Below, piece by piece: positions 13,733 to 33,526 of a DNA stretch of 34,236 bases. This stretch comes from Pseudomonadota bacterium (GTDB lineage: Bacteria; Myxococcota_A; UBA9160; PR03): contig QEVM01000045.1 in assembly GCA_003576805.1 (NCBI GenBank), positions 1-34,236 on the forward strand, written 5' to 3'. Position 1 is the stretch's first letter. Each line of letters opens with the position of its first letter. Under the pieces are notes generated by a model, which worked only from the letters and a program-made list of their open reading frames with translations, was not told where the DNA came from and did no database searches. The position numbers and the translations under genes are program-made.

Positions 13733-15292
13733 CTACGCCGGCTGCGGCCTCGGGTCGCCGTGCTCGACGACGAAGCTCACCGCGGTCGAGATCGGCGAGC
13801 TCTCTTCGAGCACCGTCTCGACGAAGCGGTAGTCGGCGCGCCACGCGTCGCGCGTCACCTCGTGGCGGACGTAGCCGCGGCTCACCGCCTCGAAGTACTC
13901 GACGTGCGGATAGCTGTTGAAGAGCAGCTCGATCAGCGACGCGGTGCCCTCGTCGAGGCCGCCCGACGAGATGCCGGTCGCGACGAACTCGCTCGCGATC
14001 GGATCCGAGAAGGTCGACGGCGCGCCGGGCGTCTGTCCGGGTACCCAGCCGACGCCCGACGCGTGGATGTCGCCGGTGAGGATCACGCTGTTGCGCAGCG
14101 GGCGCGCGCGCAAGAAGTCGACGATGCGCTGGCGCGCGAACGGGTAGCCGTCCCACTGGTCGAAGTTGAGGCGGGTGCCGATGGGCGTCGGCGAGAACAC
14201 GACCTGCTGCGCCATCACGTTCCAGCGGGCATTCGAGGCGGCGAGGCCGCCGAGCAGCCAGCTCTCCTGCGCGGCGCCCAGCATGTCGCCGTCCGGATTC
14301 GGGAACGTCGCGCAGATCGGGTCGAGCGCGCGGTCGTTGCAGTCCTGGTCGGTGCGGTACTGCCGCGTGTCGAGCACGAAGAGCTTGGCGAGGTCGCCGA
14401 ACGCGAGATCGCGGTAGATGCGGAACGACGCGCCCTTCGGCGGCAGCAGACGCACCGGCGTGTTCTCGTACCACGCCTGGTACGCCCACGCGCGCAGGTC
14501 GAGGAACGGCACGGGATACGGCGCGCCGTTCTCGTCGCGCAGCTCGCCCGCGTAGTTGTTGGCGACCTCGTGGTCGTCCCACGTCACGAGCCACGGGAAG
14601 CGCCGGTGCGCCTCGGCCAGGTTCGGGTCGCTCTTGTACAGCGCGTAGCGGTTGCGGTAGCCGGCCAACGTCTCGATGCGCGGGCCGTCGTGATCGCGCA
14701 CCTCGCCGCCGACGCCCGACTCGTAGATGTAGTCGCCGAGGAAGGCGACGAAGTCGAGGTCCTCCTGCGCGAGGTGGTGATGCGCGGTGTAGTAGCCCGA
14801 CTTCCAGTTTTGGCACGACGCCGACGCGAAGCGCATCAGCGCCGGCGCGGCGCTCGGCGCGGGGAAGGTGCGCGTGCGGCCGACGGGGCTCACGTGGCCG
14901 TCGGCGTGGAAGCGGTAGAAGTACCAGCGATCGGGCGCCAGCCCGTTCACGTCCACGTGCACGGAGTGACCGAGGCTCGGATCCGCGACCGCCGAGCCGG
15001 CGCGCACGATCGAGCGGAACGCCTCGTCGTTCGCGACCTCCCAGAACACGGTGACGGGGACCGGCGGCATGCCGGCCGCGCCGTCGGGCGCGAGCGGCGT
15101 CGGCGCGAGCCGCGTCCAGAGCACGACGCGGTCCGCGAGCGGATCGCCCGACGCGACGCCGAGCGTGAACGGATCGCCGGGCAGCACCGGCGAGCCGAAG
15201 TCGCAGCCGGCGGCCGTCATCGCCGCGCTCGCCGCCACCAGCTCGAGGAAGCGGCGGCGCGAGATGGGAAGATCGAAGCGATCGCGGCTCAT
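13733..15292 (-). CDS. phoD: PhoD-type alkaline phosphatase/phosphodiesterase, Tat lipoprotein
   Basis: A 519-residue PhoD-family metallophosphatase that hydrolyses phosphate mono- and diesters outside the cytoplasm. The N-terminus has a twin-arginine motif SRRRFLEL (residues 11-18) followed by a short hydrophobic stretch and lipobox TAAGC (Cys30), so Tat export and lipidation are both expected. A PhoD N-terminal beta domain (GVASGDPLADRVVLWTRL) precedes the catalytic domain with FLGDYIYE, WDDHEVANNY and ILTGDIHASG, which carry metal ligands. Length is usual for the family. ATG at 15292 has AAGGAG seven nucleotides upstream. The start overlaps the stop of the preceding PEP-CTERM gene by 4 nt (ATGA), so the two are coupled. 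The gene ends 34 bp from the convergent propeller gene, with no clear terminator between. Confidence 0.93.
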   Translation of the reverse strand: MSRDRFDLPISRRRFLELVAASAAMTAAGCDFGSPVLPGDPFTLGVASGDPLADRVVLWTRLAPTPLAPDGAAGMPPVPVTVFWEVANDEAFRSIVRAGSAVADPSLGHSVHVDVNGLAPDRWYFYRFHADGHVSPVGRTRTFPAPSAAPALMRFASASCQNWKSGYYTAHHHLAQEDLDFVAFLGDYIYESGVGGEVRDHDGPRIETLAGYRNRYALYKSDPNLAEAHRRFPWLVTWDDHEVANNYAGELRDENGAPYPVPFLDLRAWAYQAWYENTPVRLLPPKGASFRIYRDLAFGDLAKLFVLDTRQYRTDQDCNDRALDPICATFPNPDGDMLGAAQESWLLGGLAASNARWNVMAQQVVFSPTPIGTRLNFDQWDGYPFARQRIVDFLRARPLRNSVILTGDIHASGVGWVPGQTPGAPSTFSDPIASEFVATGISSGGLDEGTASLIELLFNSYPHVEYFEAVSRGYVRHEVTRDAWRADYRFVETVLEESSPISTAVSFVVEHGDPRPQPA

Positions 15293-16306: not shown

Positions 16307-16978
16307 ATGATCGACCCGCGCAAGACCGACGTCAGCAAGATCCTCGAGCAGCTCCTCGGCGGCCACGCGCGCACCGGGGTCGCCGGCGCGCTGGCCGGCG
16401 GCATGCTCGCGAGCAAGGCCGGCCGAAAGCTCGGCAAGAAGGCGCTGAAGCTCGGCGGGCTCGCCGCGGTGGGCGGCGTCGCGTGGCTCGCCTACGACCG
16501 CTACCGCCGCGGCGACGCCGGAGGCGCGCCGCTGCTCCAGCTCGTCGAGGGCGCACGCCGCGCCGGCTTCCTGCCGCCGCCCGCGGACGCGCAGGGCGCG
16601 CAGGAGCTCGGCCTCGTGCTGATCCGCGCGATGATCGCCGCCGCGCGCGCAGACGGGAAGCTCGACGGCCGCGAGAGCGATGCGATCCACCGCGAGATCG
16701 ACGAGCTGGAGCTCGGCCCCGACGAGAAGGAGCTGCTGCACGCCGAGCTGTCGAAGCCGGTGGACGTCGATGCGCTCGTCGCGGCTGCCACCACTCCGGA
16801 GATCGCCGCGGACATCTATACCGCGTCGCTGCTCGCGATCGAGCTGGATACGCCCGCGGAGCGCGCGTGGCTCGCGATGCTGGCGGCTCGGCTGGGTCTG
16901 CCGGATGCGCTGCGCGACGAGATCGTGCGTCGCGTCGCGGACGGCGACGCGACGGCTGGCGACTCCGGCGCGAGCTAG
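16307..16978 (+). CDS. YebE/TerB-like inner-membrane protein (DUF533)
   Basis: A 223-residue protein resembling the DUF533/YebE family. N-terminal residues 1-20 (RKTDVSKILEQLLGG) precede a Gly/Ala/Lys-rich hydrophobic segment (AGALAGGMLASKAGRKLGKK, then LGGLAAVGGVAWLAYDRY) that probably inserts in the membrane. The C-terminal half, from about residue 95, is helical and TerB-like (LIRAMIAAARADGKLDGRE, then acidic helices). TerB-fold proteins are linked to metal or stress responses, but the role of this family is not settled. ATG at 16307 has AAAGGA eight nucleotides upstream; an in-frame ATG at 16289 is the alternative. It is convergent with nuoN, and their stop codons share CTAG. Confidence 0.85.
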   Translation: MIDPRKTDVSKILEQLLGGHARTGVAGALAGGMLASKAGRKLGKKALKLGGLAAVGGVAWLAYDRYRRGDAGGAPLLQLVEGARRAGFLPPPADAQGAQELGLVLIRAMIAAARADGKLDGRESDAIHREIDELELGPDEKELLHAELSKPVDVDALVAAATTPEIAADIYTASLLAIELDTPAERAWLAMLAARLGLPDALRDEIVRRVADGDATAGDSGAS

Positions 16979-18468
16979 TAGAGCATCGCCACGCTGGAGC
17001 GCGCCCACTCGAGCGCGCGCACGGCGCCGAGGACGCCCGGCGCGTGACTGGGGAAGAAGCCGAGGAAGAGCACCACCACGGCGCACACCGCGAGCACGAG
17101 CAGCTCGCCGGTCGCGGCGTGGCGGCGCGGCGTCTCCGTCGCGGCCTCGCTCATGTACATCTGCACCGGAAGGCGCAGGTAGTAGTAGAACGACACGACG
17201 CTGCCGAGCACGCCGATGATCGCGAGCACGGTCTGGCCGGAGGCGACGGCCGACTCGAAGACGAAGAACTTCGCGACGAAGCCGGCGGTGCCCGGAATGC
17301 CGGCCAGCGAGAGCGCGAAGAGGGTGAGCAGCGCGGCGAGGCCCGGGCGCTGGCGCGCGAGGCCCGCGAGGTCGTCCAGCGTGTCGCAGTCGCGGCCGCC
17401 CTGCGCGAGCGCCATCAGCACCGCGAACGCGCCGAGATTCGTGAACACGTAGACGAGCAGGTAGAAGAGCACCGCGCCGTAGCCTTCGACCGTGCCGGTC
17501 GCGAAGCCGATCAGCAGATAGCCGGCGTGCGCGATGCTCGAGTAGGCGAGCAGCCGCTTCAGGTTGGTCTGGATCACGGCCATCACGTTGCCGACCACGA
17601 TGGTCAGCGCCGCCAGCACCCAAAAGAGATCGCTGAGGCTCGCCGTGACGGGCCCGAACGCCTGGGTCAGCAGCCGCAGCAGCGCGGCGAACGCCGCCAC
17701 CTTCACCGTGATCGCCATGTAGGCGGTGACCGAGGTGGGCGCGCCCTCGTAGACGTCGGGCGCCCACTGGTGGAAGGGCGCGCTCGCGACCTTGAACGCG
17801 AAGCCGACGACGAGCAGCCCGAGGCCGACGATGCCGATCGGGTTGCCGGGCGGGAAGCCGGCGCGGATCGCGTCGAAGCCGAGCGAGCCGGTGACGCCGT
17901 ACACGAGGGCGATGCCGTAGAGCAGGATCGCGCTCGCGAACGAGCCGACCAGGAAGTACTTGAACGCCGACTCGTTGCTGCGCAGGTTGCGGCGGTCGAA
18001 GCCGGCCATCACGTAGAGCGGGATGCTCATCAGCTCGAGCCCGAGGAAGAGCGCCATCAGGTCGGTCGCGCCGACGAGCAGGAACATGCCGGCGGTCGAG
18101 AGCAGCAGCAGCGCGTAGTACTCGCCGTGGTTGATGCCGACCTGCGGCAGGTACGAGATCGACGCGAAGCAGATCAGCAGCGACGCGATCCCGATCAGCG
18201 CGATCGAGTAGGCGGCGAAGCGGTCGAGCGACAGCATCGGGTTGGCCGGATCGAAGACGCGCGTCGTGCCGTCGGAGAAGGCGGCGCCCGCGCAGTAGAC
18301 CGACAGCCCGAGGAAGCTGATCGAGAGCACCGAGAGCGCGGCGTTGATGAAGTGCTCGTTGGTGCGCCGGCGCGTCAGCCACACCTCGCCGAGCAGCACG
18401 AAGAGCGCGCCGAAGGCGGCGAAGGCGAGCGGCGCGATCGCGGCCATGTCGAGCTGCGGCGCGTTCAT
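16975..18468 (-). CDS. nuoN: NADH-quinone oxidoreductase subunit N
   Basis: A 497-residue antiporter-like proton-pumping subunit of complex I in the cytoplasmic membrane, with about 14 transmembrane segments. Conserved ionisable residues in the expected places: Glu in GLELMSIPLYVMAGF, Lys in AFKVASAPFHQWAPDVYEGA, Lys in MAITVKVAAF, and Lys in GTAGFVAKFFVF. NLKRLLAYSSIAHAGYLL is the family's discontinuous-helix region. The ATG at 18468 overlaps the nuoM stop (ATGA). It is last in the nuo operon. The stop overlaps the stop of the convergent TerB-like gene by 4 nt, leaving no room for an intergenic terminator. Confidence 0.97.
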   Translation of the reverse strand: MNAPQLDMAAIAPLAFAAFGALFVLLGEVWLTRRRTNEHFINAALSVLSISFLGLSVYCAGAAFSDGTTRVFDPANPMLSLDRFAAYSIALIGIASLLICFASISYLPQVGINHGEYYALLLLSTAGMFLLVGATDLMALFLGLELMSIPLYVMAGFDRRNLRSNESAFKYFLVGSFASAILLYGIALVYGVTGSLGFDAIRAGFPPGNPIGIVGLGLLVVGFAFKVASAPFHQWAPDVYEGAPTSVTAYMAITVKVAAFAALLRLLTQAFGPVTASLSDLFWVLAALTIVVGNVMAVIQTNLKRLLAYSSIAHAGYLLIGFATGTVEGYGAVLFYLLVYVFTNLGAFAVLMALAQGGRDCDTLDDLAGLARQRPGLAALLTLFALSLAGIPGTAGFVAKFFVFESAVASGQTVLAIIGVLGSVVSFYYYLRLPVQMYMSEAATETPRRHAATGELLVLAVCAVVVLFLGFFPSHAPGVLGAVRALEWARSSVAMLY

Positions 18469-20090
18469 CGGACGGCGCCCTCGGCGAGCTCGACGCCGAG
18501 CGCCGAGACCGCGGCCTGCACCGGCGGCGCCGTCTGGAGCGCGGCGGCCTTGCGCGTCTCCATCTGGTGGAGCAGGTCGGAGACGGACGCGTCGAGCCGG
18601 CGCAGGAACGGGTTCGGGTTCACGCCGATCCAGAAGATCGGCACGACCACCGCGAGGATCACGAAGCGCTCGCGCCAGTCGAGGTCGATCAGCGCGCGGT
18701 TCTCCGGCTCCTCGACCGGCCCGAAGAACATGCGCCGGTACGCCCAGAGCAGATAGGCGGCCGCGAGCACCACGCCGAACGCCGCCGCCGTGCCGACCCA
18801 CGGGTTCACCACGAACGCGCCCGCCAGGATCAGGAACTCGCCGACGAAGCCGTTGAGGCCCGGCAGCCCGATGCTCGACATCGCGACGATCCCGAACAGC
18901 AGCGCGAACACCGGCATCGGCTTCGCGATCCCGCCGAAGGCGGAGATCTGCCGCGTGTGGCGTCGCTCGTACACCATGCCGACCAGCAGGAAGAGCGCCC
19001 CCGTCGAGAGCCCGTGGTTCACCATCTGGAGGATCGAGCCCTCGAGGCCCTCCTCGTTGAGCGCGAAGATGCCGAGCATCACGAAGCCGAGGTGCGCGAC
19101 GGACGAGTACGCGACCAGCTTCTTGATGTCGGTCTGCACCATCGCGACCAGCGCGCCGTACAGGATCCCGATCAGCGCGAGCGCGAAGATCAGCGGCGCC
19201 GCCTGCTCGGCTGCGATCGGGAAGAGCGGCAGCGCGAAGCGCACGAAGCCGTAGGTGCCCATCTTGAGGAGCACGCCCGCCAGGATCACGGAGCCGGAGG
19301 TCGGCGCCTCGACGTGCGCGTCGGGCAGCCAGGTGTGGAACGGCACCATCGGCACCTTGATGCCGAAGGCGAGCGCGAAAGCCGCGAACAGCCACGGCTG
19401 CGTCTTCCACCACACCGCCTGGCCCGCGAGCGGCACGGCCGTCTCGAGCAGGCCCGGCACGCCGCCGCCCGGCACGCGCACGAGGTCGAAGCTGACCGCG
19501 CCGAACTGCTCCTGGTGCAGCCCGTACAGCACGATCATCGCGATCAGCATCAGCAGCGAGCCGACCATCGTGAACAGGAAGAACTTCACCGCGGCGTAGA
19601 CGCGCCGCTGGCCGCCCCAGATCCCGATGATGAAGTACATCGGGACCAGCATGACCTCCCAGAACACGTAGAACTGGAAGAGGTTCAGCGAGACGAACGC
19701 GCCGAGCATGCCCGTCTCGAGGAAGAGGTTCATGAACAGGAAGGTGCGCGCCTGCTTGCGCTGCTCGTTCCACGCGGCGAGCAGCACGAGCGGCATCAGG
19801 AAGGTGGTGAGCACCACCAGCAGCAGGCTCATGCCGTCGATGCCGACGAAGTAGTGGATGCCCCAGTTGGGGAGCCACGCCACGTGCTCGACGAACTGGT
19901 GCCCGGGCCGCGTCGCGTCGTAGCGGAACCAGAGCAGCAGCGAGAGCAGGAAGGTGAGCGTCGTGCTCGCGAGCGCGACGATCTTCCAGACGCGCTCGGG
20001 CAGGCCGCGCAGCAGCACGAGCAGCACGAGCCCCGTCGCGAGCGGCAGGAACGTCACGATCGTGAGCAGGCGGCCGTCGAGCAGGTCCAT
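18465..20090 (-). CDS. nuoM: NADH-quinone oxidoreductase subunit M
   Basis: A 541-residue antiporter-like membrane subunit of complex I. Seen: Glu in QFYVFWEVMLVPMYFIIG, Lys in AFGIKVPMVPFHTWLPDAHVE, Lys in GVLLKMGTYG, and Glu in GLNGFVGEFLIL, all at positions required for proton transfer in the family. QTDIKKLVAYSSVAHLGFV marks the broken helix. The C-terminal 50 residues beyond the last membrane segment are Ala-rich and soluble, somewhat longer than usual. ATG at 20090 is preceded by TAGGAGG, which overlaps the end of nuoL, 12 nt away. Confidence 0.97.
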   Translation of the reverse strand: MDLLDGRLLTIVTFLPLATGLVLLVLLRGLPERVWKIVALASTTLTFLLSLLLWFRYDATRPGHQFVEHVAWLPNWGIHYFVGIDGMSLLLVVLTTFLMPLVLLAAWNEQRKQARTFLFMNLFLETGMLGAFVSLNLFQFYVFWEVMLVPMYFIIGIWGGQRRVYAAVKFFLFTMVGSLLMLIAMIVLYGLHQEQFGAVSFDLVRVPGGGVPGLLETAVPLAGQAVWWKTQPWLFAAFALAFGIKVPMVPFHTWLPDAHVEAPTSGSVILAGVLLKMGTYGFVRFALPLFPIAAEQAAPLIFALALIGILYGALVAMVQTDIKKLVAYSSVAHLGFVMLGIFALNEEGLEGSILQMVNHGLSTGALFLLVGMVYERRHTRQISAFGGIAKPMPVFALLFGIVAMSSIGLPGLNGFVGEFLILAGAFVVNPWVGTAAAFGVVLAAAYLLWAYRRMFFGPVEEPENRALIDLDWRERFVILAVVVPIFWIGVNPNPFLRRLDASVSDLLHQMETRKAAALQTAPPVQAAVSALGVELAEGAVR

Positions 20091-20102
20091 GTCCGCCGCC
20101 TC

Positions 20103-22114
<2,012 letters not shown>

Positions 22115-22121
<7 letters not shown>

Positions 22122-22420
22122 TTGAGCAGGCTCACTTCCTCGACGTCCACCGACTCGCGGTTGCGGAACAGCGCGATCACGATGCCGAGCCCGACGGCCA
22201 CCTCCGCGGCCGCCACCACGATCACCATCAGCACCATCACGTGGCCGTCGAGCGAAGCCCAGGCCCGCGCGAAGCCGAGGAACGCCACGTTGGCGGCGTT
22301 CAGCATCAGCTCGATCGACATCAGGATCACGACCAGGTTGCGGCGCGAGAGCGCGCCGACCGTGCCGATCGCGAACAAGATCGCGGAGAGCGCGATCACG
22401 TGCGCCAGGGGGACGGGCAT
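22115..22420 (-). CDS. nuoK: NADH-quinone oxidoreductase subunit K
   Basis: A 101-residue complex I membrane subunit with three transmembrane helices. The two conserved membrane glutamates are present: Glu37 in VILMSIELMLNAANV and Glu73 in VVAAAEVAVGLGIVIAL, which form part of the proton path. I chose the ATG at 22420, which shares one base with the nuoJ stop (TGATG); a TTG directly before it is also in frame. Length is typical of the family. Confidence 0.96.
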
Positions 22421-22923
22421 CAATCCAGCCTCCGCTTGGCGAGCACCACCGCGCCGACGATCGCCGCCAGCAGCAGGAACGAGGTCACCTCGAACGGCAG
22501 CACGAAGTCGCGGTAGAGCGTGCGTCCGACCGCGGCGTAGGAGCCGAAGTCGGGCGGGATCTCCTGCACCGTCGGCAGCGCCTGCGGGACGAGCTGGAGG
22601 AACGCGCCGGCGACGCCGAGCGCGAGCACGACGCCCGCGCCCTTGGTGAGCAGCTGGCGCGAGGGCGCGAAGGTGTCGCGGCGCAGGTTCAGCAGCATCA
22701 CGACGAACAGGAACACGACCACGATGGCGCCGGCGTAGACCAGGATCTGGAGCGCCGCGACGAGGTGCGCCTCGAGCGTCACGTAGACCACGGCCAGCGA
22801 GATCATCGTGACGACGAGGCTCATCGCGGCCGCGACCGTGTTGCGGACGTTCAGCACCATGGCGAGCGCCGAGACCACCGCCGCCGCGCCGAACAGGTAG
22901 AAGAAGACGGCGGGCGCGCTCAC
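22420..22923 (-). CDS. nuoJ: NADH-quinone oxidoreductase subunit J
   Basis: A 167-residue complex I membrane subunit with five predicted helices. ALQILVYAGAIVVVFLFVVML contains the conserved pi-bulge region (helix 3) that changes conformation during turnover, and NLR follows it as usual. The GTG at 22923 overlaps the nuoH stop (GTGA); the same frame is open far upstream within nuoH, but family alignment and the overlap support this start. It directly follows nuoH: the nuoI gene that usually sits between them is missing. Confidence 0.95.
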   Translation of the reverse strand: MSAPAVFFYLFGAAAVVSALAMVLNVRNTVAAAMSLVVTMISLAVVYVTLEAHLVAALQILVYAGAIVVVFLFVVMLLNLRRDTFAPSRQLLTKGAGVVLALGVAGAFLQLVPQALPTVQEIPPDFGSYAAVGRTLYRDFVLPFEVTSFLLLAAIVGAVVLAKRRLD

Positions 22924-24080
22924 GACTTGGCTCCCTGGATCAGCAGGATCACGAGCCCGGTGACCAGGATGTTGGCCAGCGAGAGCGGCAGCATGACCTT
23001 CCAGCACAGGTCCATGACCTGGTCGTAGCGGGGGCGCGGCAGCGTCCAGCGGATCTGCATCTGGAGCCAGATCATCACGATCACCTTCACGAAGAAGGTG
23101 ACCACGTGCAGCACCATGCAGAGCGCGGTCGCGACGCCGGCGCCGAAGACCGGCGTGATGCCGCCGATGATGTCGGCCTGCGAGAGCCACGGGATCGACC
23201 AGCCGCCGAGGAAGATCGCCGTCATCAGGGCCGCGATCACCACGACCTCGATGAACTCCGACATGTAGAAGAGGCCGAAGCGCATCCCCGAGTACTCGAG
23301 GAAGTAGCCGGCGATGATCTCCGACTCGCCCTCCGGCAGGTCGAAGGGCGCGCGCTTGTTCTCGGCCATCACGCAGGTGAGGAACATGATGAAGCCGAGC
23401 GGCTGGAGCAGGATGCCCCACGACGGCAGCGTCAGATGGCCGAGAAAGCCGAGGCTCTCGACGAGCCCGAAGTGCTCGAGGAAGCCGAAGATCCGAAAGG
23501 TCGAGTCCTGCGCGACGCCCATGTCGGTGAGGCGCAGCGTCTGGAAGACCATGAAGACGCCCACGACGGACAGGCCCATCGTGACCTCGTACGAGATCAT
23601 CTGCGCCGACGCGCGCAGGCTGCCGAGCAGCGACCAGTTGTTGTTGCTCGCCCAGCCCGCGATCACGGTGCCGTAGGTCGCGATCGAGGCGATCGCGAAG
23701 ACGTAGAGCAGCCCCCAGTCGAGGTCGGCGACCACCAGATTCACGGTGGTGTCGCCGAACTGGTAGATGCCGCCGTACGGGATCACCGCGAACGACGCGA
23801 TCGCCGGCACCGCGGCGATGACCGGCGCGAGCATGTGCATCACGCGGTTGGCGCCGGCCGGGACCACGTCCTCCTTGGTGAGCAGCTTGATCACGTCGGC
23901 GAGCGGGTGCAGCAGGCCGAGCACCGTGATGCCGGCGATGTCGGCGCGATTGGCGCCGATGCGGTCCTGCATCACGGCGCTCTGCTTGCGCTCGATCCAG
24001 GTGATCACCGGCGCGAACGCGCCGACCGCGACCCCGATGATGAACAGCGTCTTCAGGACGACAGGCAGCAGGACTTCCAA
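22920..24080 (-). CDS. nuoH: NADH-quinone oxidoreductase subunit H
   Basis: A 386-residue membrane subunit that forms the quinone-access channel with NuoB and NuoD. Seen: WIERKQSAVMQDRIGANRAD (family WxERKxxxxxQxRxGPNRVG), MAENKRAPFDLPEGESE and GYFLEYSGMRFGLFYMSEF, which hold acidic residues of the E-channel. The start is a TTG at 24080, immediately after the nuoG stop and preceded by GGGGGA; no better ATG or GTG is nearby. It is slightly longer than the E. coli subunit (325), mainly in loops. Its cytoplasmic partners NuoB and NuoD are not encoded here. Confidence 0.94.
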   Translation of the reverse strand: MEVLLPVVLKTLFIIGVAVGAFAPVITWIERKQSAVMQDRIGANRADIAGITVLGLLHPLADVIKLLTKEDVVPAGANRVMHMLAPVIAAVPAIASFAVIPYGGIYQFGDTTVNLVVADLDWGLLYVFAIASIATYGTVIAGWASNNNWSLLGSLRASAQMISYEVTMGLSVVGVFMVFQTLRLTDMGVAQDSTFRIFGFLEHFGLVESLGFLGHLTLPSWGILLQPLGFIMFLTCVMAENKRAPFDLPEGESEIIAGYFLEYSGMRFGLFYMSEFIEVVVIAALMTAIFLGGWSIPWLSQADIIGGITPVFGAGVATALCMVLHVVTFFVKVIVMIWLQMQIRWTLPRPRYDQVMDLCWKVMLPLSLANILVTGLVILLIQGAKS

Positions 24081-24081
24081 G

Positions 24082-25668
24082 CTAGTCCCCCGCGCCCGCG
24101 AGCGGCGCGCCGTCCGGCGGCACGGAGTCGAGGTCCAGGCCCGCGAACGCCGGCACCGACTGCGCCAGCGCCTTCGAGACCGCGCGCACGTCGTAGGGGT
24201 CGTCGAAGCCGGGCAAGCCCAGCGCCTGCGCGATCTGCCAGAGCGCCTCGCCCTCCGAGAGCGCCTCGAAGGGCGGCTCGACGGCCGGCTGCACGCGCTG
24301 CACGCGCCCGGCGAAGTTGGTGAGCGTGCCCTCCTTCTCGGCGGCGTGGCGCACCGGCACCACCACGTGCGCGATCGACTCGAGCGGCGAGCGGTGCGTG
24401 TCGAGCAGCACCAGCGTGTCCACCCGCTCCAGCGCGTCGCGCGACTCCGCGTACGGCGCGGCGAGCACGTCGTGGCCCATCACGACGAGCGCCTCGACCG
24501 CGCCGCCGCGCGTGCGCGAGAGCAGGCCGGCGGCGTCCTCGAAGCCGAGCGCGCGCGCGCCGCTCGCGTTGGGCGCCTTCTCTTCCTTGATCAGCAGGTC
24601 GTCGCCGCGGCCGCGCACCACGGCGAAGCCCGCCTGCGTCGAGCCGATCGCGTCGAGGAAGCGGCGCGCGACGAAGAGGTCCTCGTTGGTCGCGTGCGGC
24701 GACACCAGCAGGCCGACCGCGCCGGCGCCCTTGGTGGCGACGACGTTGCGGATGCGCTCGGCGGCGGCCGCGATCGCCTCCTCCAGCGGCACCGCGACCG
24801 GAATGCCGTCGGCGTTCTGGAGCGCGGCGTGATCGATGCGGTCGTCGGCGCCGATCCGCTTGTACGAGAGGCGGCCGGGATCGCACAGCCAGGTCTGGTT
24901 CACCGCGTCGTTGCGCCGCGGCACGTAGCGGTAGACGCGGTTGTTCGCGACGCCGAGGTAGACGTTGCAGCCGTTCGCGCAGCCGGTGCACACGCCCGGC
25001 ACGTCCTCGAGGAACCACACGCGGATCTTGAAGCGGAAGTCCTTGGTGGTGAGCGCGCCGACCGGACAGATGTCGGCGACGTTCATCGAGTAGTCGTTGG
25101 CGAGCGGCTGGCCCGGGAAGGTCTCGATCACCGAGCGGTCGCCGCGCGAGAACACCGACAGCTCGCCGGTGCCCGGCACCTCGCGGCAGAAGCGCACGCA
25201 GCGGCGGCACAGGATGCAGCGCTCCTGGTCGAACACGATCGTCGGCCCGAGGTCGACGCGCTTCTTCGCGGCCCGGCGCGGCTCCTGCGTGCGCGCGTGC
25301 TGCTGGCCGTACTCGAAGGCGTAGTCCTGCAGCTTGCACTCGCCCGCCTGGTCGCAGATCGGGCAGTCGAGCGGGTGGTTGAGGAGCAGCAGCTCCATCA
25401 CGCCTTCGCGCGCACTCTGCACGCGCTCGCTCTGCGTGTGGATCTTCATCCCCTCCGCGACCGGCGTGTTGCACGCGATCTGGAGCTTCGGGACGCCCTC
25501 GACCTCCACCTGGCACAGCCGGCAGCTCCCGTCGATCGAGAGCTTCGGGTGCCAGCAGTAGTGCGGGATGTCGACGCCGTTCATCAGGACGCCGACGTCG
25601 TCCAGGGCCTGCAGGATGGTGCGGCCCTCCGCGACCTCGTACTCGACGCCGTCGACGCTGATCTTCAT
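24082..25668 (-). CDS. nuoG: NADH-quinone oxidoreductase subunit G, short form
   Basis: A 528-residue iron-sulphur subunit of the peripheral arm of complex I. An N-terminal 2Fe-2S ferredoxin domain (CWHPKLSIDGSCRLCQVEV, then ACNTPV) is followed by the His/Cys-ligated cluster site (NHPLDCPICDQAGECKLQD) and a two-cluster region (CILCRRCVRFC and ADICPVGAL). CTGCANGCNVYLG with a later WLCDPGR matches the N7-type cluster. The molybdopterin-oxidoreductase-like C-terminal half is shortened: E. coli NuoG has about 908 residues. The short form occurs in many bacteria, so this may not be a truncation. ATG at 25668 overlaps nuoF by 4 nt (ATGA). Confidence 0.96.
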   Translation of the reverse strand: MKISVDGVEYEVAEGRTILQALDDVGVLMNGVDIPHYCWHPKLSIDGSCRLCQVEVEGVPKLQIACNTPVAEGMKIHTQSERVQSAREGVMELLLLNHPLDCPICDQAGECKLQDYAFEYGQQHARTQEPRRAAKKRVDLGPTIVFDQERCILCRRCVRFCREVPGTGELSVFSRGDRSVIETFPGQPLANDYSMNVADICPVGALTTKDFRFKIRVWFLEDVPGVCTGCANGCNVYLGVANNRVYRYVPRRNDAVNQTWLCDPGRLSYKRIGADDRIDHAALQNADGIPVAVPLEEAIAAAAERIRNVVATKGAGAVGLLVSPHATNEDLFVARRFLDAIGSTQAGFAVVRGRGDDLLIKEEKAPNASGARALGFEDAAGLLSRTRGGAVEALVVMGHDVLAAPYAESRDALERVDTLVLLDTHRSPLESIAHVVVPVRHAAEKEGTLTNFAGRVQRVQPAVEPPFEALSEGEALWQIAQALGLPGFDDPYDVRAVSKALAQSVPAFAGLDLDSVPPDGAPLAGAGD

Positions 25669-26960
25669 AGCTCGAAGCTCTGCGGGAAGGGGCACTTGCC
25701 GTGCTCGACGTGCGCCTCGAAGTCCTCGCGGAAGTGGCGCAGCAGGCCCTGCACCGGCCAGGCGGCGGCGTCGGCGAAGGCGCAGATCGTCTGGCCCTCC
25801 ATCTTTCCGCACACGTCGAGCAGGATGTCGATGTCCTCGCGCGAGCCGGCGCCGCGCTCGATGCGCTGCACGATCTTGTGCAGCCAGCCGGTCCCCTCGC
25901 GGCACTGCGTGCACTGGCCGCACGACTCGTCGCGGAAGAAGTAGGTGACGACGCACGCGACGCGCACCATGCAGACGCTGTCGTCGATCACCATGACGCC
26001 GCCGGTGCCGAGCATCGTCTTGCGCTCGCGCAGGAACTCGTTCGCCATCGGCACGTCGAGCTGCGACACGGGCAGGATCGGCATCGACATGCCGCCCGGG
26101 ATCACGCCTCGCACCTTGCGGCCGGGCAGCGGCCCGCCGGCGTGCTGGAAGACGATCTCGTCGAGGCGCGTGCCGAGCGGCAGCTCATAGAGGCCGGGAC
26201 GCTGCACCAGGCCCGACACGCCGAAGATGGTGGTGCCCGGGCTCTTCTCGGTGCCGAAGCCTTTGAACCACGCGGGGCCGTTCTTCACGATGTGCGGCAC
26301 GTGCGAGAAGGTCTCGACGTTGTTCACCGTGGTCGGCATGCCGAAGGCGCCGTACTGCGCGGGAAACGGCGGCTTCTTGCGCGGCTGGCCCTTCTTGCCC
26401 TCGAGCGACTCGAGCAGGCCCGTCTCCTCGCCGCAGATGTAGGCGCCGGCGCCGCGCGTCACGACCACGTCGTGCGCGAAGCCGGTGCCCATCACGTCCG
26501 ACCCGAGCAGGCCCTCGGCGTAGCACTCGTCGATCGCGCGCTGGAGCACGTCGGCCGGCTGCGCGTACTCGCCGCGCACGTAGACGAAGGTCTTCGACGC
26601 GCCCGTCGCCCAGGCGCCGATCACGATGCCCTCGAGCATCTGGTGCGGCGCACGCTCGAGCAGCAGGCGGTCCTTGAACGAGCCGGGCTCGGACTCGTCC
26701 GCGTTGCAGACCAGGTACTTCGGCTTGTCGGCGGCCTTCGGCATGAACGACCACTTCATGCCGGTGCCGAAGCCCGCTCCGCCGCGGCCCTGGAGGCCCG
26801 CGTCCTTCACGAGGTTCACGACGTCGTCGGGCGACATCTGGGTGAGCGCCTTGCGCGCCGCCTCCCAGCCGCCGCGCGCGCGATAGCCCGCGAGCGTCGC
26901 GAAGGCGTCGTCGCCGGCGTGCTCGGTCAGGTAGCTGGTGACGAACGGGGCCTTCTGCAC
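25665..26960 (-). CDS. nuoF: NADH-quinone oxidoreductase subunit F
   Basis: A 431-residue NADH- and FMN-binding subunit, the electron entry point of complex I. Seen: glycine-rich GLQGRGGAGFGTGMKW for NADH/FMN, YLVCNADESEPGSFKDR, GAGAYICGEETGLLESLEG, and the N3 4Fe-4S site ESCGQCTQCREGTGW with the fourth Cys in EGQTICAFADAAAWP. Length is typical. Start is a GTG at 26960, four nucleotides after the nuoE stop; the ribosome site is weak, so initiation may depend on coupling. E and F would form the NADH dehydrogenase module with NuoG. Confidence 0.97.
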   Translation of the reverse strand: MQKAPFVTSYLTEHAGDDAFATLAGYRARGGWEAARKALTQMSPDDVVNLVKDAGLQGRGGAGFGTGMKWSFMPKAADKPKYLVCNADESEPGSFKDRLLLERAPHQMLEGIVIGAWATGASKTFVYVRGEYAQPADVLQRAIDECYAEGLLGSDVMGTGFAHDVVVTRGAGAYICGEETGLLESLEGKKGQPRKKPPFPAQYGAFGMPTTVNNVETFSHVPHIVKNGPAWFKGFGTEKSPGTTIFGVSGLVQRPGLYELPLGTRLDEIVFQHAGGPLPGRKVRGVIPGGMSMPILPVSQLDVPMANEFLRERKTMLGTGGVMVIDDSVCMVRVACVVTYFFRDESCGQCTQCREGTGWLHKIVQRIERGAGSREDIDILLDVCGKMEGQTICAFADAAAWPVQGLLRHFREDFEAHVEHGKCPFPQSFEL

Positions 26961-26964
26961 GGAG

Positions 26965-27432
26965 CTACTTCAGCTCGTCGAGCAGCCGCTTCGCGGTCTC
27001 GACGTCGAGGTTCTCGTGGTACTGCGCGCCGATGCGCAGCATGGGCGCCCAGGCGCAGGCGCCCAGGCACTCCTCGTGCCCGAGCGTGATGCGGCCGTCG
27101 GGCGTGGTCTCGCCCGACTCGATGCCGAGGTGCTGCTCGATCTCCTTCAGCAGGTCGCGCGCGCCGCGCAGCGAGCAGGGCAGGTTCGTGCAGACGTACA
27201 CGTGGTGCCGGCCCTGCGGGCGGTCGTAGAACATGTTGTAGAAGGTGACGACCTCCATCACCTCGATCGGGTGGATCTCGAAGATCGCCGCCAGCTCCTG
27301 CGCCGTCTCCGGCGAGATCCAGCCGGTCTGCTTCTGCACGAGGTGCAGCGCCGGCAGCAGCGCGCCGCGCCGCTTCGGGTACTTCGCGATCTCGGCGTCG
27401 ATCGCCGCGCGCGTCTCGGCGGAGATCACCAT
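26965..27432 (-). CDS. nuoE: NADH-quinone oxidoreductase subunit E
   Basis: A 155-residue thioredoxin-fold subunit carrying the N1a 2Fe-2S cluster. The four cysteine ligands are visible: CTNLPC (spacing four) and CLGAC (spacing three). HLVQKQTGWISPE and VVTFYNMFYDRPQGRH are conserved in the family. ATG at 27432 overlaps the nuoA stop by 7 nt. It directly follows nuoA; the usual nuoB, nuoC and nuoD genes are absent between them. Confidence 0.97.
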   Translation of the reverse strand: MVISAETRAAIDAEIAKYPKRRGALLPALHLVQKQTGWISPETAQELAAIFEIHPIEVMEVVTFYNMFYDRPQGRHHVYVCTNLPCSLRGARDLLKEIEQHLGIESGETTPDGRITLGHEECLGACAWAPMLRIGAQYHENLDVETAKRLLDELK

Positions 27433-27779
27433 TCGAGCGCGCCCTTCATCCACACGTAGGCGAGGCCGCCGGCGAGCACGGCGACGAAGGTCAGCATCTC
27501 GACGAAGCCGAACCAGCCGAGCTCGGTGAAGAGCGCGCCCCACGGATACATGAACACCGCCTCGACGTCGAAGAGGATGAACAGCATTGCGACGATGTAG
27601 AACTTCACCGAGAAGCGCTGGTGCGGGGACACGATCGGCCGCTCGCCGCACTCGAACGGCTCGTCCTTCTCGGCGAACGAGCGGCGCGGGCCGACCAGCA
27701 GATGGATGCCGAGCAGCGCGCTCGCCAGCACCAACGCGACGGCGAGGATGACGACCGCGCCCGTGTACTCGGCGAGCAT
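27426..27779 (-). CDS. nuoA: NADH-quinone oxidoreductase subunit A
   Basis: A 117-residue membrane subunit with three helices, first gene of the operon. Seen: FECGERPIVSPHQRFSVKFY loop (with the Cys of the conserved ExG/ECG turn) and LFILFDVEAVFMYPWG, hallmark of NuoA/ND3. ATG at 27779 is preceded by GAGGGGGGAG two nucleotides upstream. A frame continues upstream through a low-complexity repeat, but the family start fits 27779. Promoters of this gene and of divergent gpsA must be in the 251 bp upstream (27780-28030). Confidence 0.96.
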   Translation of the reverse strand: MLAEYTGAVVILAVALVLASALLGIHLLVGPRRSFAEKDEPFECGERPIVSPHQRFSVKFYIVAMLFILFDVEAVFMYPWGALFTELGWFGFVEMLTFVAVLAGGLAYVWMKGALEW

Positions 27780-28030: not shown

Positions 28031-29056
28031 ATGGGCGTGCGCGCTGCAGTGCTCGGCGCGGGCAGCTTCGGAAGCTGCCTCTCCATCCTGTGCGCCGACC
28101 GCGGCCACGACGTCACGCTCTGGGCGCGCGACGCCGAGATGGTCGCTTCGATCGCGCGCGAGCGGCGCAACCCGCGCTTCCTCAAGGACATCGACTTCCC
28201 TGCGGCGATCCGCCCCACGACGGATCTCGGCGAGGCGCTCGCGGACGCGGAGATGGTGATCGTCGCGGTGCCGAGCCACGCGGTCCGCGACGTGATGAGC
28301 CGGGCCGGATCGCTGATGCCGTCCGAGGCGCTCCTCGTGCTCGCGGTGAAGGGCATCGAGGAAGGCACCGGCAAGACGATGGACGCGGTGCTCGCCGAGG
28401 TGCTGCCCGCCTGCTTCGAGCCGCGCATCACGGTGCTCTCGGGGCCGTCGTTCGCGAAGGAGGTCGCGCAGCACATGCCGACCGTCGTGACCGTCGCGTG
28501 CCGCGAAGAGGCCTACGCGATCGCCGTCCAGTCGCACCTCTCGTGTCCGTGGTTCCGCTGCTACTCGGAGACCGACGTGCTGGGCGTCGAGGTCGGCGGC
28601 GCGCTCAAGAATGTGATCGCGATCGCGGTCGGCGTCTCCGACGGGCTCGGGCTCGGCCTCAACGCGCGCGCCGCCACGATGACCCGCGGGCTCGCCGAGA
28701 TCACCCGGCTCGGAGTCCGCATGGGCGCGAACCCGCTGACCTTTCTCGGCCTCTCGGGAATGGGCGACCTCGTTCTCACTTGCACCGGCGACCTCTCGCG
28801 CAACCGCCGCGTCGGCCTCGCGCTCGGCCAGGGCCGCAAGCTCCCCGAGATCCTCGAGGAGATCGGCGAGGTCGCCGAGGGCGTGCGCACGACCTACGCC
28901 GCCTGCGAGCTCGCGGGCAAGCTCGGCGTCGAGCTCCCGATCGCGCAGGGCGTGAAGCTGCTGCTCGACGGCGCGGTCGACCCGCGCGACGGCGCGCGCT
29001 TGCTGCTCACGCGGCAGCTCCGCGGCGAGCGCGATTGGAACTACCCCGCGAAATGA
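28031..29056 (+). CDS. gpsA: Glycerol-3-phosphate dehydrogenase [NAD(P)+]
   Basis: A 341-residue cytoplasmic enzyme reducing dihydroxyacetone phosphate to sn-glycerol-3-phosphate for phospholipid synthesis. Seen: N-terminal Rossmann motif VLGAGSFGSCL (residues 7-17; family usually GSWGTA), VIVAVPSHAVRDV, SGPSFAKEVA, the catalytic Lys193 in GGALKNVIAIAVG, and LSGMGDLVLTCTGDLSRNRR. Length is typical. I chose the ATG at 28031; an in-frame GTG at 28022 is possible, and neither has a strong ribosome site. Phe for Trp in the first motif is a mild variant. The gene stands alone, divergent from nuoA. Confidence 0.96.
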   Translation: MGVRAAVLGAGSFGSCLSILCADRGHDVTLWARDAEMVASIARERRNPRFLKDIDFPAAIRPTTDLGEALADAEMVIVAVPSHAVRDVMSRAGSLMPSEALLVLAVKGIEEGTGKTMDAVLAEVLPACFEPRITVLSGPSFAKEVAQHMPTVVTVACREEAYAIAVQSHLSCPWFRCYSETDVLGVEVGGALKNVIAIAVGVSDGLGLGLNARAATMTRGLAEITRLGVRMGANPLTFLGLSGMGDLVLTCTGDLSRNRRVGLALGQGRKLPEILEEIGEVAEGVRTTYAACELAGKLGVELPIAQGVKLLLDGAVDPRDGARLLLTRQLRGERDWNYPAK

Positions 29057-29060
29057 CCTC

Positions 29061-29149
29061 GTGGGTCGCCGCTCGCCTGCGGCTGCGGGGGTGCATCGCG
29101 CTTGCATGCACGACCGCGAGCCTTGTGGGGTCGCCGCTCGCCTTCGGCT
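29061..29149. repeat. Two direct REP-like repeats flanking a small hairpin, 3' of gpsA
   Basis: A 24-25 bp sequence occurs twice: at 29061-29084 and 29125-29149, differing at two sites. Its core TCGCCGCTCGCCT-CGGCT can fold on itself (GCCGC with GCGGC in the first copy). Between them GTGCAT (29091-29096) and ATGCAC (29106-29111) form a 6-bp inverted repeat. A similar core, TCGCCGCTCGC followed by AGCGGC, occurs at 27825-27840 upstream of gpsA. The rest of the 29057-29292 gap shows nothing recognisable. Short interspersed repeats of REP type fit best. Confidence 0.5.
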
Positions 29150-29292
29150 CGCTACGCGGGAAACGGGCTTCGCGCCGCTAGGGGAAGTGGCGATTCATTA
29201 GCGGAGGGCGGATATCCCCCGCGGGCTGCTGACTCGTGGGGCGGGGAATGTCACTCTGCGGCCGTGCTCGAGTGGGTGGAGGGATCTCCTCG

Positions 29293-30159
29293 ATGAGGCA
29301 TCGACGGCACGCGCGCGCGATCGCGGCGGCGGGGCTCGCGTGGGCGGCGTTCACGGCGACCGGTTGCATGACCAAGACGATCCGCACGCCGGTCTTCGAG
29401 GAGAACTTCGTCGAGGTGTACCTGCGACACCAGGAGCGCATGGGCAGCGCCGTCGACGCCGGCTTCTCGCACCCGGTCACCGTCGCGCCGGTGCGCATCA
29501 CCAACATGCTCGCGCGCATCGAGGTGCGGAAGGAAGGCGACAAGGAGCGCCAGCCCGCGATCCCGACCAACCATCTGTACCCGGTCGGCGAAGGCATCTC
29601 GCGCGCGCTCGCCAAGGCCGACCCGACCCAGGAAGTCGTGGTGATGGCCAAGGAGCGCAAGCGCAGCATGGGCATCTTCACGCAGGACTTCCTGACGAGC
29701 CTGCTCGTGTGGGCGCAGGACGACAAGCTCTACATCAAGATCGGCCAGCTCGACTCGCCGCTCTCGAAGAACCCCAACGACAGGATCCCGGAGCCGAAGC
29801 GCGACGAGATCGTCGGCAAGAGCCGCGTCGTGCCGAGCGAGGGCATCAACGCGGAGAACGTGCAGCTCGTCAGCGCCAACTGGCGCGACCCGCTCTTCAA
29901 GGACTCGGGCGTGATCTCCGTGCGCGCCGGCGGCAAGGTCGTACGCCGGACGGTGTTGATGGACAGCGGCGAGGAGTCCTCGATCCCCGCCGCGCCGCAG
30001 ACGGGCGCGCCCGTCCCGCCCGAAGGCCTCTCGCCCGAAGCGCTGCGCGCGCTCGCCGACCTCGAGGACGAGCGCCGCCGCGGGCAAGTCACCGAAGCCG
30101 ACTACCAGTCGAAGCGACGGCAGATCCTCGCGGGCGAGACGCCGGCCGCGAGCCCGTAG
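29293..30159 (+). CDS. Lipoprotein with C-terminal SHOCT-like segment
   Basis: A 288-residue exported lipoprotein of unknown function. Signal: Arg/His-rich start, hydrophobic IAAAGLAWAAF, then Cys25 in TATGC, a lipobox. The mature part has a beta-rich domain (TRPVF-like start, then VTVAPVRITNMLARIEVRKE) with no recognised active site. Residues about 250-285 (LADLEDERRRGQVTEADYQS, then KRRQIL) match the short SHOCT pattern: two amphipathic helices joined by a G-x-(I/V)-T-E turn. ATG at 29293 has GGAGGG some 12 nt upstream, a little far; a start at 29236 would bury the signal. It is flanked by large gaps and stands alone. Confidence 0.8.
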   Translation: MRHRRHARAIAAAGLAWAAFTATGCMTKTIRTPVFEENFVEVYLRHQERMGSAVDAGFSHPVTVAPVRITNMLARIEVRKEGDKERQPAIPTNHLYPVGEGISRALAKADPTQEVVVMAKERKRSMGIFTQDFLTSLLVWAQDDKLYIKIGQLDSPLSKNPNDRIPEPKRDEIVGKSRVVPSEGINAENVQLVSANWRDPLFKDSGVISVRAGGKVVRRTVLMDSGEESSIPAAPQTGAPVPPEGLSPEALRALADLEDERRRGQVTEADYQSKRRQILAGETPAASP

Positions 30160-30391: not shown

Positions 30392-33300
30392 ATGCTGATT
30401 CTCGTCGAGATCCTCGCGGTCGCGCTGGTCGCGCTCGCGGTGTCCCGCCTCGCGCCCGAGCCGTGGCGCGGCCGCCTGCTGAACGTGCTGAAGGCGTGGG
30501 TGACGGTGCGCGCCTTCTGGCTGCTGCTCGATCACCAGGTGAAGATGGAGCCCGACCAGATCGAGGCGCTCCACCTGACGGGCAAGGTGCCCGAGGGCAC
30601 CACGCACATCGCGGCCTGGCGGCTCATCTGGGCGCAGATCGGGCTCATCGAGGCGAGGACGTTCTGGACCTTCGTGCTGCTCTCCGCAGCCGTGAAGTTC
30701 GTCGGCATCCTGTCCTCGATGTACCGCTGGCAGGTGCTGCTGCGCGGCCAGCGCATCGAGCTGCCGTTCCGCCACATCTTCGGCTCGTTCCTGATCGGGC
30801 GCTTCATCGGCACGTTCCTGCCGAGCACCGCGGGCCTCGACGGCTACAAGCTCTACGACGCCGCGCGCTTCAGCGGCAAGACGGTCGAGGTGACGGCGAC
30901 CACCGCGCTCGAGAAGGTGCTCGGCGTCTTCGGCATCTTCCTCTCGTTCCTGGTCGCGCTGCCGTTCGGCATCAAGATCTTCGGCGAGAACGGGCCGATG
31001 GTCGCCGCGATCACCGTGCCGCTCTCGCTCGGGCTGATCGGCGCGCTGCTCGTCGTGCTCTGGTTCCCGGGCCTCGTGCAGTGGCTGCTGACGCACCTGC
31101 CGATCCCCGGCCGGGCGCGCCTCGAAGGCGTCGTGCTGCGCATCTCGAATGCGGCGGCCGCGTACCGCGACAAGAAGACGCTGGTGCTGCTCGCGCTCGG
31201 GCTCTCGTTCGTCGTGCACTTCACGACCGCGGCGATGTACTACTTCACCGCGCTCGCGATCGGCGCGCAGAACGCCGAGTTCTGGCCGATCGCGTTCGGC
31301 TCCTCGATCCAGATCTTCGCGACGGTCGTGTCGCCGTTCACGATCGCGGGCGCCGGCATCCGCGAGGCGGCGCAGTACGTGCTGCTCTCGAACCAGATCG
31401 GCGCGGCCGCGGCGATCGTGTCGGCGGCGCTCGGCTTCTGGGCCGCGGAGGCGCTGACGCTGCTCGGCGGCGTCTTCTGGTGGATCCGCCCGTCCCACTA
31501 CCGGCCGGCGTGGTGCCGCGTGAACGGACGGCAGGTCGACTACGACGAGGCCGCGCGCGCGGCCGTCGCGCTCGAGACCGAGGACGACCGGCGCCGCCAC
31601 GCCGCGCGGCCGGCCGCCGACGTCCCGAGCTTCGCGACGCGCGTGCGCATCGCGGCGAGCGCCGGCTTCGGCGCGGGCGCCCTCGCGGGCTTGCTGATCG
31701 GCGTCGTCGAGGCGTTCGTGATCGCGCAGGAAGGGCTCGGCTCCGACTCCCAGGTGCTCTGGTACGGACCGCTCGTGTACGCGGCGCTGCTCGGTCTCGC
31801 CGGTCTCGCGGGCGGCGTCGCGCTCTCGGTGCTGCCGATGGAGCGGCGCGAGATCCGCGGCTGGGTCGCGAGCCTCGCGTGGATCGCGCTCGGCGTCGGG
31901 CCCGCGCTGCTGATCGCGCTCTTCCGCATCCGCCGTGACGTCTTCCACGAGCAGATGCCGCCGCTGCCCGTGCTCGCCGCCGTGCTCGGCGTCGCGGGCC
32001 TGCTCGTGCTCTTCTTCTTCCTGCTCGGCCCGCGCGTCTTCTCGGGCCGCGTCGGGCGCGTGGCGGGCGCGCTGCCCGCGCTCGTCGCGATGGCGCTCGT
32101 CGCGGGCGGCGGCGCGCTCGTCGGCCGCGCGCTCTACCCGTCCGCTCCGCCGCCGCCAGCGCCGCCGGTCGCGCCCGCCGCGCTCGCGGACAAGCCGAAC
32201 CTGCTGCTGATCGTGATCGACACGCTGCGCGCGGACGTGCTGTCGTGCTACGGCGGGCCGATCGAGGCCAAGGCGATCTGCGGCGTCGCGGAGGACGGCG
32301 GCACCGTCTTCACCGGCTTCTCGCACGCGTCGTGGACGAAGCCGTCGTTCGCGTCGCTGCTGACGTCGACCTTGCCGTCGACGCACAACACGATGGCCAA
32401 GACCGCGACGCTGCCGCAGGACCTCGAGCTGGTCAGCGAGGCGCTCCAGAAGCACGGCTACGCGACGGGCGGCATCGTCGCGAACATCAACCTCGCGCCG
32501 AGCTTCGGCTTCGAGCAGGGCTACGACGAGTACCACTACCTCTCGCCCGACTACCTGTTCGGCGCGGAGGAGTCGTCGTCGAAGCTCATCTTCTACCAGA
32601 TCGGCCGCAAGGTGGCGCTCAAGGTGAAGCCCGGGCACCGCGTCTCGGACTACTACCAGAACGCGGAGACCGTGACGGGCGTCGCGAGCGACTGGCTGAC
32701 GCGCCACAAGGACTCGCGCTTCTTCCTGCTGCTCCACTACATGGACCCGCACGACCCGTACTTCGCGCACCCGTACCGCGGCGAGGCGATCGCGCGCGTC
32801 GAGGCGGAGAACCCGGATCCCGCGCTCGCGGGCCGCATGCGCGAGCTCTACGACGAAGAGGTCCGCTACACCGACGAGTGGATCGCCGAGCTCGAGGCGC
32901 ACCTGCGCTCGCTCGGGCTGTGGGACGACACGATGATCGTGATCACCGCCGACCACGGCGAGGAGTTCTTCGAGCACGGCGGCTGGTGGCACGGCAAGAC
33001 GCTCTACGAGGAGCAGATCGCGGTGCCGATGCTGGTCAAGTGGCCGAAGGGCCGCGTCGAGGCGCCCGCGCGCGTCGACGACCACCCGGTCCGCCACAAG
33101 GACGTGGCGCCCACCCTGCTCGCGCTGGCGGGCGCGCCGGTGCCGCCCGGCATGCAGGGCAAGGACCTCGCCGTGCCGTACGAGCAGCGCAGCGAGACCG
33201 AGCGCCTGCACTACGCCGAAGAGGACCACGAGGGCAACGTGCTGCGCGCGATCCGCACCAAGGACTGGAAGCTGATCGAGGCGAACGCGGGCAACCCGCG

Positions 33301-33526
33301 CGGGCTGCCCGAGACGGAGCTGTTCGAGATCCTCGCGGACCCGCACGAGAAGCAGAACGTCGCGCACGCCCGGCCGGAGAAGACCGCCGAGCTGCGCATC
33401 CACGCCGAGGCGCAGCGCCAGGTCGCCGCCAGCCAGGCCGTCGAGGGCGGCGCGCAGGCCAAGCTCTCGAAGGAAGAGTGCGAGAAGCTGCGCGTGCTCG
33501 GTTACGTGCAGGACTGCGGGGGCTGA
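30392..33526 (+). CDS. Fusion of a lysyl-PG-synthase-like flippase domain and a sulfatase-fold enzyme
   Basis: A 1044-residue multipass membrane protein. Residues 1 to about 380 resemble the flippase-like UPF0104/LPG-synthase membrane domain (VKFVGILSSMYRWQVLLRGQ, GRFIGTFLPSTAGLDGYKLY, SPFTIAGAGIREAAQYVLL). About 420-590 add more helices and a Pro-rich linker. From 600 a sulfatase/alkaline-phosphatase-superfamily domain follows: LLLIVIDTLRADVL (Asp610), TADHGEEFFEHGGWWHGKTL, and KDVAPTLLALAGAPVP. At the nucleophile site the sequence is SWTKPSFASLLTS: Thr649 replaces Cys/Ser of C/S-x-P-x-R, and Phe653 replaces Arg, so formylglycine formation is not expected. A Thr nucleophile occurs in phosphotransferase members of the superfamily. 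Role inferred: modification of a lipid-linked or envelope substrate. ATG 30392 has GAGGTG upstream. Confidence 0.88.
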   Translation: MLILVEILAVALVALAVSRLAPEPWRGRLLNVLKAWVTVRAFWLLLDHQVKMEPDQIEALHLTGKVPEGTTHIAAWRLIWAQIGLIEARTFWTFVLLSAAVKFVGILSSMYRWQVLLRGQRIELPFRHIFGSFLIGRFIGTFLPSTAGLDGYKLYDAARFSGKTVEVTATTALEKVLGVFGIFLSFLVALPFGIKIFGENGPMVAAITVPLSLGLIGALLVVLWFPGLVQWLLTHLPIPGRARLEGVVLRISNAAAAYRDKKTLVLLALGLSFVVHFTTAAMYYFTALAIGAQNAEFWPIAFGSSIQIFATVVSPFTIAGAGIREAAQYVLLSNQIGAAAAIVSAALGFWAAEALTLLGGVFWWIRPSHYRPAWCRVNGRQVDYDEAARAAVALETEDDRRRHAARPAADVPSFATRVRIAASAGFGAGALAGLLIGVVEAFVIAQEGLGSDSQVLWYGPLVYAALLGLAGLAGGVALSVLPMERREIRGWVASLAWIALGVGPALLIALFRIRRDVFHEQMPPLPVLAAVLGVAGLLVLFFFLLGPRVFSGRVGRVAGALPALVAMALVAGGGALVGRALYPSAPPPPAPPVAPAALADKPNLLLIVIDTLRADVLSCYGGPIEAKAICGVAEDGGTVFTGFSHASWTKPSFASLLTSTLPSTHNTMAKTATLPQDLELVSEALQKHGYATGGIVANINLAPSFGFEQGYDEYHYLSPDYLFGAEESSSKLIFYQIGRKVALKVKPGHRVSDYYQNAETVTGVASDWLTRHKDSRFFLLLHYMDPHDPYFAHPYRGEAIARVEAENPDPALAGRMRELYDEEVRYTDEWIAELEAHLRSLGLWDDTMIVITADHGEEFFEHGGWWHGKTLYEEQIAVPMLVKWPKGRVEAPARVDDHPVRHKDVAPTLLALAGAPVPPGMQGKDLAVPYEQRSETERLHYAEEDHEGNVLRAIRTKDWKLIEANAGNPRGLPETELFEILADPHEKQNVAHARPEKTAELRIHAEAQRQVAASQAVEGGAQAKLSKEECEKLRVLGYVQDCGG

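Follow-up and report, generated by a model that had tools for sequence, protein, structure and literature searches.

A single gene in the window (the whole 34,236-nucleotide stretch analyzed, contig QEVM01000045.1, GTDB lineage Myxococcota_A; UBA9160; PR03) joins a flippase-like domain, a five-helix membrane module and a sulfatase-fold domain. The chances are about even that its product is a two-part inner-membrane lipid-processing enzyme, made up of an MprF-type flippase and an outward-facing phosphate-ester enzyme with a threonine nucleophile. The reading frame starts with ATG and encodes 1,044 amino acids. The features of the gene and its upstream neighbor are listed in Table 1.

Table 1. 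Features of the fused gene and its upstream neighbor, with positions in the window
Feature	Position	Strand	Evidence
Lipoprotein gene (family unknown), next to the fusion throughout the order	29293..30159	+	Cluster adjacent in 14 other loci
Fused gene: flippase-like domain, five-helix membrane module, sulfatase-fold domain	30392..33526	+	ORF, translation, full-length orthologues across the order
PF03706 (LPG_synthase_TM, MprF-type flippase) domain, residues 79-347	30626..31432	+	Pfam, fold matches, conservation
Arg-rich linker, residues 362-417, predicted cytoplasmic	31475..31642	+	K+R mean 0.12 per residue (38 fused sequences) vs 0.004 in the next loop
Five-helix membrane module, residues 414-581	31631..32134	+	Helices in both models (whole chain; 1-588)
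Glycine ridge and membrane glutamate, G425-x3-G429-x3-G433-x3-G437-xx-E440	31664..31711	+	81-95% conserved in fused and unfused forms
Conserved FRxRRDVxxE loop, residues 511-520	31922..31951	+	Predicted on the catalytic-domain side of the membrane (positive-inside rule)
Catalytic domain of sulfatase fold (alkaline phosphatase superfamily), including an S1-type C-terminal subdomain	32189..33523	+	PF00884, SGSH_C; fold search E 2e-17 vs S1 sulfatases
Asp610 codon, predicted metal ligand	32219..32221	+	Invariant
Thr649 codon, predicted nucleophile	32336..32338	+	Invariant; starts helix 649-658 of the model; falls on position 1 of C/S-x-P-x-R in solved structures
His787 codon (MDPHDPY)	32750..32752	+	Invariant
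Asp854-His855 codons, predicted metal ligands (DHGEE)	32951..32956	+	Invariant
Conserved loop H862 to H867 (HGGWWH)	32975..32992	+	Conservation; low model confidence, pLDDT <50 at 859-870

Domains and distribution of the fusion

The product matched PF03706 at residues 79-347 (E 1.1e-16), PF00884, with its metal-site motifs, at 602-915 (E 4e-44) and SGSH_C at 862-1003. The initial annotation had proposed a flippase-like domain fused to a sulfatase-fold domain, and the fusion is real, as these matches and the full-length relatives show. Its motifs were also placed correctly, with IDTLRAD starting at residue 609, the threonine of TKPSF at 649 and TADHG starting at 852. The five-helix module (approximately residues 414-581) is a separate part that was absent from that two-domain description. 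No Pfam family was matched by the module.

With one genome scanned per species, full-length relatives were found, mostly in Myxococcota bins. Whole-genome searches for homologues with the same fusion, as the initial annotation had suggested, found it at full length in 36 genomes sampled from the same order, with approximately 55-82% identity. Its retention in dozens of independently assembled genomes ruled out an assembly or frame artefact. A second, distant fused clade was present in other families (approximately 36-42% identity). The metagenome bin G300 carried a separate, complete flippase half which was 63% identical to that of the window. The same fusion was not found in a literature search whose coverage left out most subscription journals.

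The flippase half scored 61.6 bits against PF03706, above the curated cutoff of 33.4, and PF03706 matches were strongest in unfused homologues (E 1e-34). The fused protein missed the curated cutoff of TIGR00374 (35.8 bits compared to 43.2). Conserved residues of the PF03706 domain included R137, D150, E174, H276, R324 and E325. For a model of residues 1-588 the best six PDB fold matches were all MprF with a probability of 1.00, and the next match dropped to 0.15. The overall TM-scores of the MprF matches were only 0.34-0.37 with large rmsd, and the way the parts pack together either differs or is mispredicted. The N-terminal half did not match solved MprF by sequence in single-sequence or profile searches, and the likeness comes from Pfam and fold comparison only. 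These results agree with the putative lipid-translocating membrane domain of the initial annotation, with translocation itself a prediction. No Pfam match to the C-terminal aminoacyl-PG synthase domain of MprF proper was obtained, and the sulfatase-fold domain occupies that place.

MprF resembles the fused protein in its PF03706 domain, in being the best PDB fold match and in having a flippase joined to a lipid headgroup enzyme. PaMprF acts as an energy-independent scramblase of many lipids, and a preference for certain substrates is proposed by its authors to come from the enzyme fused to it (PMC11980842). The enzyme part of MprF aminoacylates inner-leaflet lipids (PMC11980842), whereas the enzyme part here is of sulfatase fold and predicted to lie on the outer face. 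The GpgSDF and HexSDF glycolipid systems also partner a YbhN/AglD2-type flippase with headgroup enzymes (PMC12713373), but these are encoded by separate genes and the glycosyl chemistry is done by cytoplasmic enzymes.

The five-helix module goes with the sulfatase half in unfused relatives, where separate C-half genes align from approximately residue 415. The catalytic domain was predicted to lie outside the cytoplasm because lysine and arginine abound in the linker that follows the flippase domain while the first loop of the module and the pre-catalytic stretch (0.04 per residue in the 38 fused sequences) are poor in them. The one exception to this predicted positive-inside topology is the conserved FRxRRDV loop, which falls on the predicted outer side. 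E520 of this loop was 94% conserved. The loop is put forward as a candidate phosphate-binding site near the catalytic domain. LtaS (PMC4192460) and YejM (PMC7576196) have five helices followed by an extracytoplasmic domain with a threonine nucleophile, and the predicted helices and charge bias of the fused protein follow the same LtaS/EptA/YejM plan.

Active site and the meaning of the threonine

T649, D610, D854, H855, H787 and H867 did not vary among the aligned relatives, of which 38 were fused, 12 distant fused and 19 unfused. All six were also invariant in a larger set of approximately 78 sequences, in which H862 was 99% conserved. The threonine of the TKPSF motif in the initial annotation thus holds throughout, but F653 varies (T, A, V and M occur) and the motif of the family is shorter. 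The whole-chain structure prediction had a mean pLDDT of 83.3 and a pTM of 0.69. T649 was the first residue of a helix following a strand, the usual position of the nucleophile in the alkaline phosphatase superfamily. The loop at 859-870, with two conserved histidines, was poorly predicted.

In the fold search the catalytic part matched S1 sulfatases best. In a profile search against solved structures phosphonate monoester hydrolases/phosphodiesterases ranked 2, 3 and 7. T649 was aligned to the catalytic-position serine of 5g2v and to position 1 of C-x-P-x-R in the phosphonate monoester hydrolase 2w8s. The G printed at that position in the PDB sequence of 2w8s is, in our own reading, a modified residue. 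Comparison with solved structures, which the initial annotation had called for, put T649 at the nucleophile position of sulfatases and phosphonate hydrolases by alignment, with S1 sulfatases as the nearest folds. The refuting condition set there, a Thr649 away from the metal site, was checked by alignment and secondary structure. LtaS and EptA were absent among the fold and profile matches listed for the catalytic part. The curated EptA/MCR/YejM family models all scored far below cutoff (e.g., YejM 29.8 compared to 825). LtaS, EptA and YejM (PbgA) share with the predicted architecture of the fused protein the five helices and the extracytoplasmic alkaline-phosphatase-superfamily domain with a threonine as putative nucleophile (PMC4192460, PMC7576196), but the fused protein lies below their family cutoffs and has an S1 sulfatase-type C-terminal subdomain and an extra N-terminal flippase domain. 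The S1 folds and the retained S1-type subdomain count against the reading as a lipid-processing enzyme with phosphate-ester chemistry, and so does the low model confidence of the active-site loop at 859-870.

The S1 formylglycine sulfatases and S1_0 phosphonate monoester hydrolases share the catalytic fold, the metal-site motifs and SGSH_C with the fused protein. It differs from them in having threonine for cysteine or serine, in lacking the formylglycine-stabilizing arginine and in being membrane-anchored. Direct use of the threonine to desulfate a sulfolipid would fit the nearest solved folds and the SGSH_C domain. It is nevertheless highly improbable. The C/S-x-P-x-R motif of formylglycine-dependent S1 sulfatases was not found, its place being taken by T649-K-P-S-F with threonine invariant in all relatives and F, T, A or V at the arginine position. 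Formylglycine is not expected from threonine, the oxidation of which would not yield it (PMC5066984). Cys-type sulfatases and FGE-like proteins are encoded in the same genome, and formylglycine is probably made where cysteine is present.

The threonine is not a rare anomaly, as it is common among the sulfatase-fold proteins of the same genome. Ten of the 13 distinct paralogous frames examined had threonine and three had the cysteine motif. Threonine is also found in 30 of the 59 PF00884 seed sequences, and such Thr-type proteins are not to be called formylglycine sulfatases (PMC5066984). The initial annotation had taken the site to indicate phosphate or phospho-headgroup transfer. Threonine alone does not point to such transfer because 10 of 13 paralogues share it.

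Another reading has the protein sense or regulate lipid balance without catalysis, similar to the regulatory role proposed for PbgA/LapC. PbgA/YejM has the same plan of five helices and a sulfatase fold (PMC7576196), and there was a weak NCBIfam match far below cutoff. Invariance of all predicted metal and nucleophile residues in approximately 78 sequences is unexpected for a pseudoenzyme, and makes such a role improbable.

Separate halves and gene neighborhoods

Among the genomes of the phylum that lie outside the class and have no fusion, 25 had both halves, three had the flippase half only, 13 had the enzyme half only and 165 had neither. The co-occurrence was significant by Fisher test (p 1.4e-19, uncorrected for kinship and with score thresholds set after the data were seen). 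The three flippase-only exceptions were a genome with a truncated enzyme half (G116) and two incomplete genomes (G278 and G160). In G230, one of the 25 genomes with both, the halves were at contig ends and may represent a broken fusion. In other lineages the halves were unlinked genes. In L035 they were side by side. In a Chloroflexi bin (L034:5815-14111) four Thr-type sulfatase-fold genes stood in tandem, the first of them overlapped by the flippase gene, with a PF01663 phosphodiesterase gene ahead.

The two halves probably act jointly on a membrane lipid, given that relatives have both of them in one genome as separate genes. The coupling in cis suggested by the initial annotation gains support at the level of function from fusion, adjacency and co-occurrence, with the coupling itself a deduction from them. 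The enzyme half may work alone because some genomes have it with no recognizable flippase half.

In the trees of both halves unfused forms stood between the two fused clades. In the AU test the flippase half rejected a single fused clade (p 0.0003), whereas the enzyme half did not (p 0.22). Independent fusion is thus supported by the flippase half only, and one ancestral fusion that later split several times may also account for the pattern. A shared pathway with no mechanistic coupling, in which the fusion would just fix the ratio or location of the halves, is compatible with the unlinked genes of several families and with the 13 genomes that have the enzyme half alone. This is unlikely, as adjacent gene pairs occur and, together with fused clades that lie apart on both trees (with statistical support for independent fusion in the flippase half only), favor a physical association.

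The usual arrangement in the order was gpsA - feoB - lipoprotein - fusion, with feoB named by reading the sequence. Neighboring genes were clustered with codon scoring to guard against spurious high-GC ORFs. The lipoprotein matched no Pfam family. Most relatives have the FeoB-like gene between gpsA and the lipoprotein gene, but the window lacks it (29054-29292). The genes gpsA and feoB were uninformative as operon clues, being housekeeping genes separated by large gaps. Elsewhere in the window, the minus strand has genes resembling a NADH dehydrogenase (nuo) operon at 16978-27779, with a nuoA-type gene (PF00507) at the upstream end, and at 13736-15292 a gene with a twin-arginine-like start and a resemblance by eye to PhoD-type phosphatases.

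The neighbors of unfused flippase halves were housekeeping or unrelated genes. Unfused enzyme halves adjoined PF01663 phosphodiesterase genes in L033, L034 and L076, genes of the same cluster in L036, L038 and L075, and glycosyltransferase-like genes in some lineages. These neighbors are suggestive, hinting at surface-glycan or lipid-linked chemistry. In two families a gene with FG-GAP repeats recurred next to the enzyme half or next to the distant fused gene (L074, L098, L103, L104, L105).

Proposed lipid processing

In the proposed mechanism the N-terminal MprF-type domain would shift a lipid between leaflets and the five-helix module would anchor the outward-facing alkaline-phosphatase-superfamily domain. 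A metal-activated Thr649 would attack a lipid phosphate ester, giving a Thr-phosphate or Thr-phospho-headgroup intermediate. This would be passed on to an acceptor, as in LtaS/EptA, or to water. The flippase would either supply substrate outward or bring spent lipid back inward.

Transfer is slightly favored over hydrolysis. As a hydrolase, the protein would be a membrane phosphatase/phosphodiesterase that strips a lipid of its headgroup or of phosphate, and the flippase would recycle the product inward. This is tentatively plausible given the retained S1-type C-terminal subdomain, the phosphonate monoester hydrolases/phosphodiesterases near the top of the profile search, the PF01663 genes and their cluster relatives beside unfused enzyme halves, and the phosphatase activity of the five-helix protein YejM (PMC7576196). 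The conserved membrane module and the flippase are equally compatible with transfer.

A more specific form of the transfer reading is somewhat doubtful. The protein would be an outward-facing counterpart of MprF, in which a flippase and a Thr-nucleophile phospho-headgroup transferase form a repeatedly fused pair in Myxococcota that makes or remodels an uncharacterized surface phospholipid or lipid-linked polymer. What is new here is the pairing of the halves, as threonine in a sulfatase fold was already known. To our knowledge an assigned partner or substrate is lacking for most flippases of PF03706 and for most sulfatase-fold proteins of the Thr type. This conserved, repeatedly joined pair ties together one orphan of each kind, and its single gene lets lipid movement and headgroup chemistry be studied together. 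If the proposal is true, MprF-style coupling would not be confined to the cytoplasmic face.
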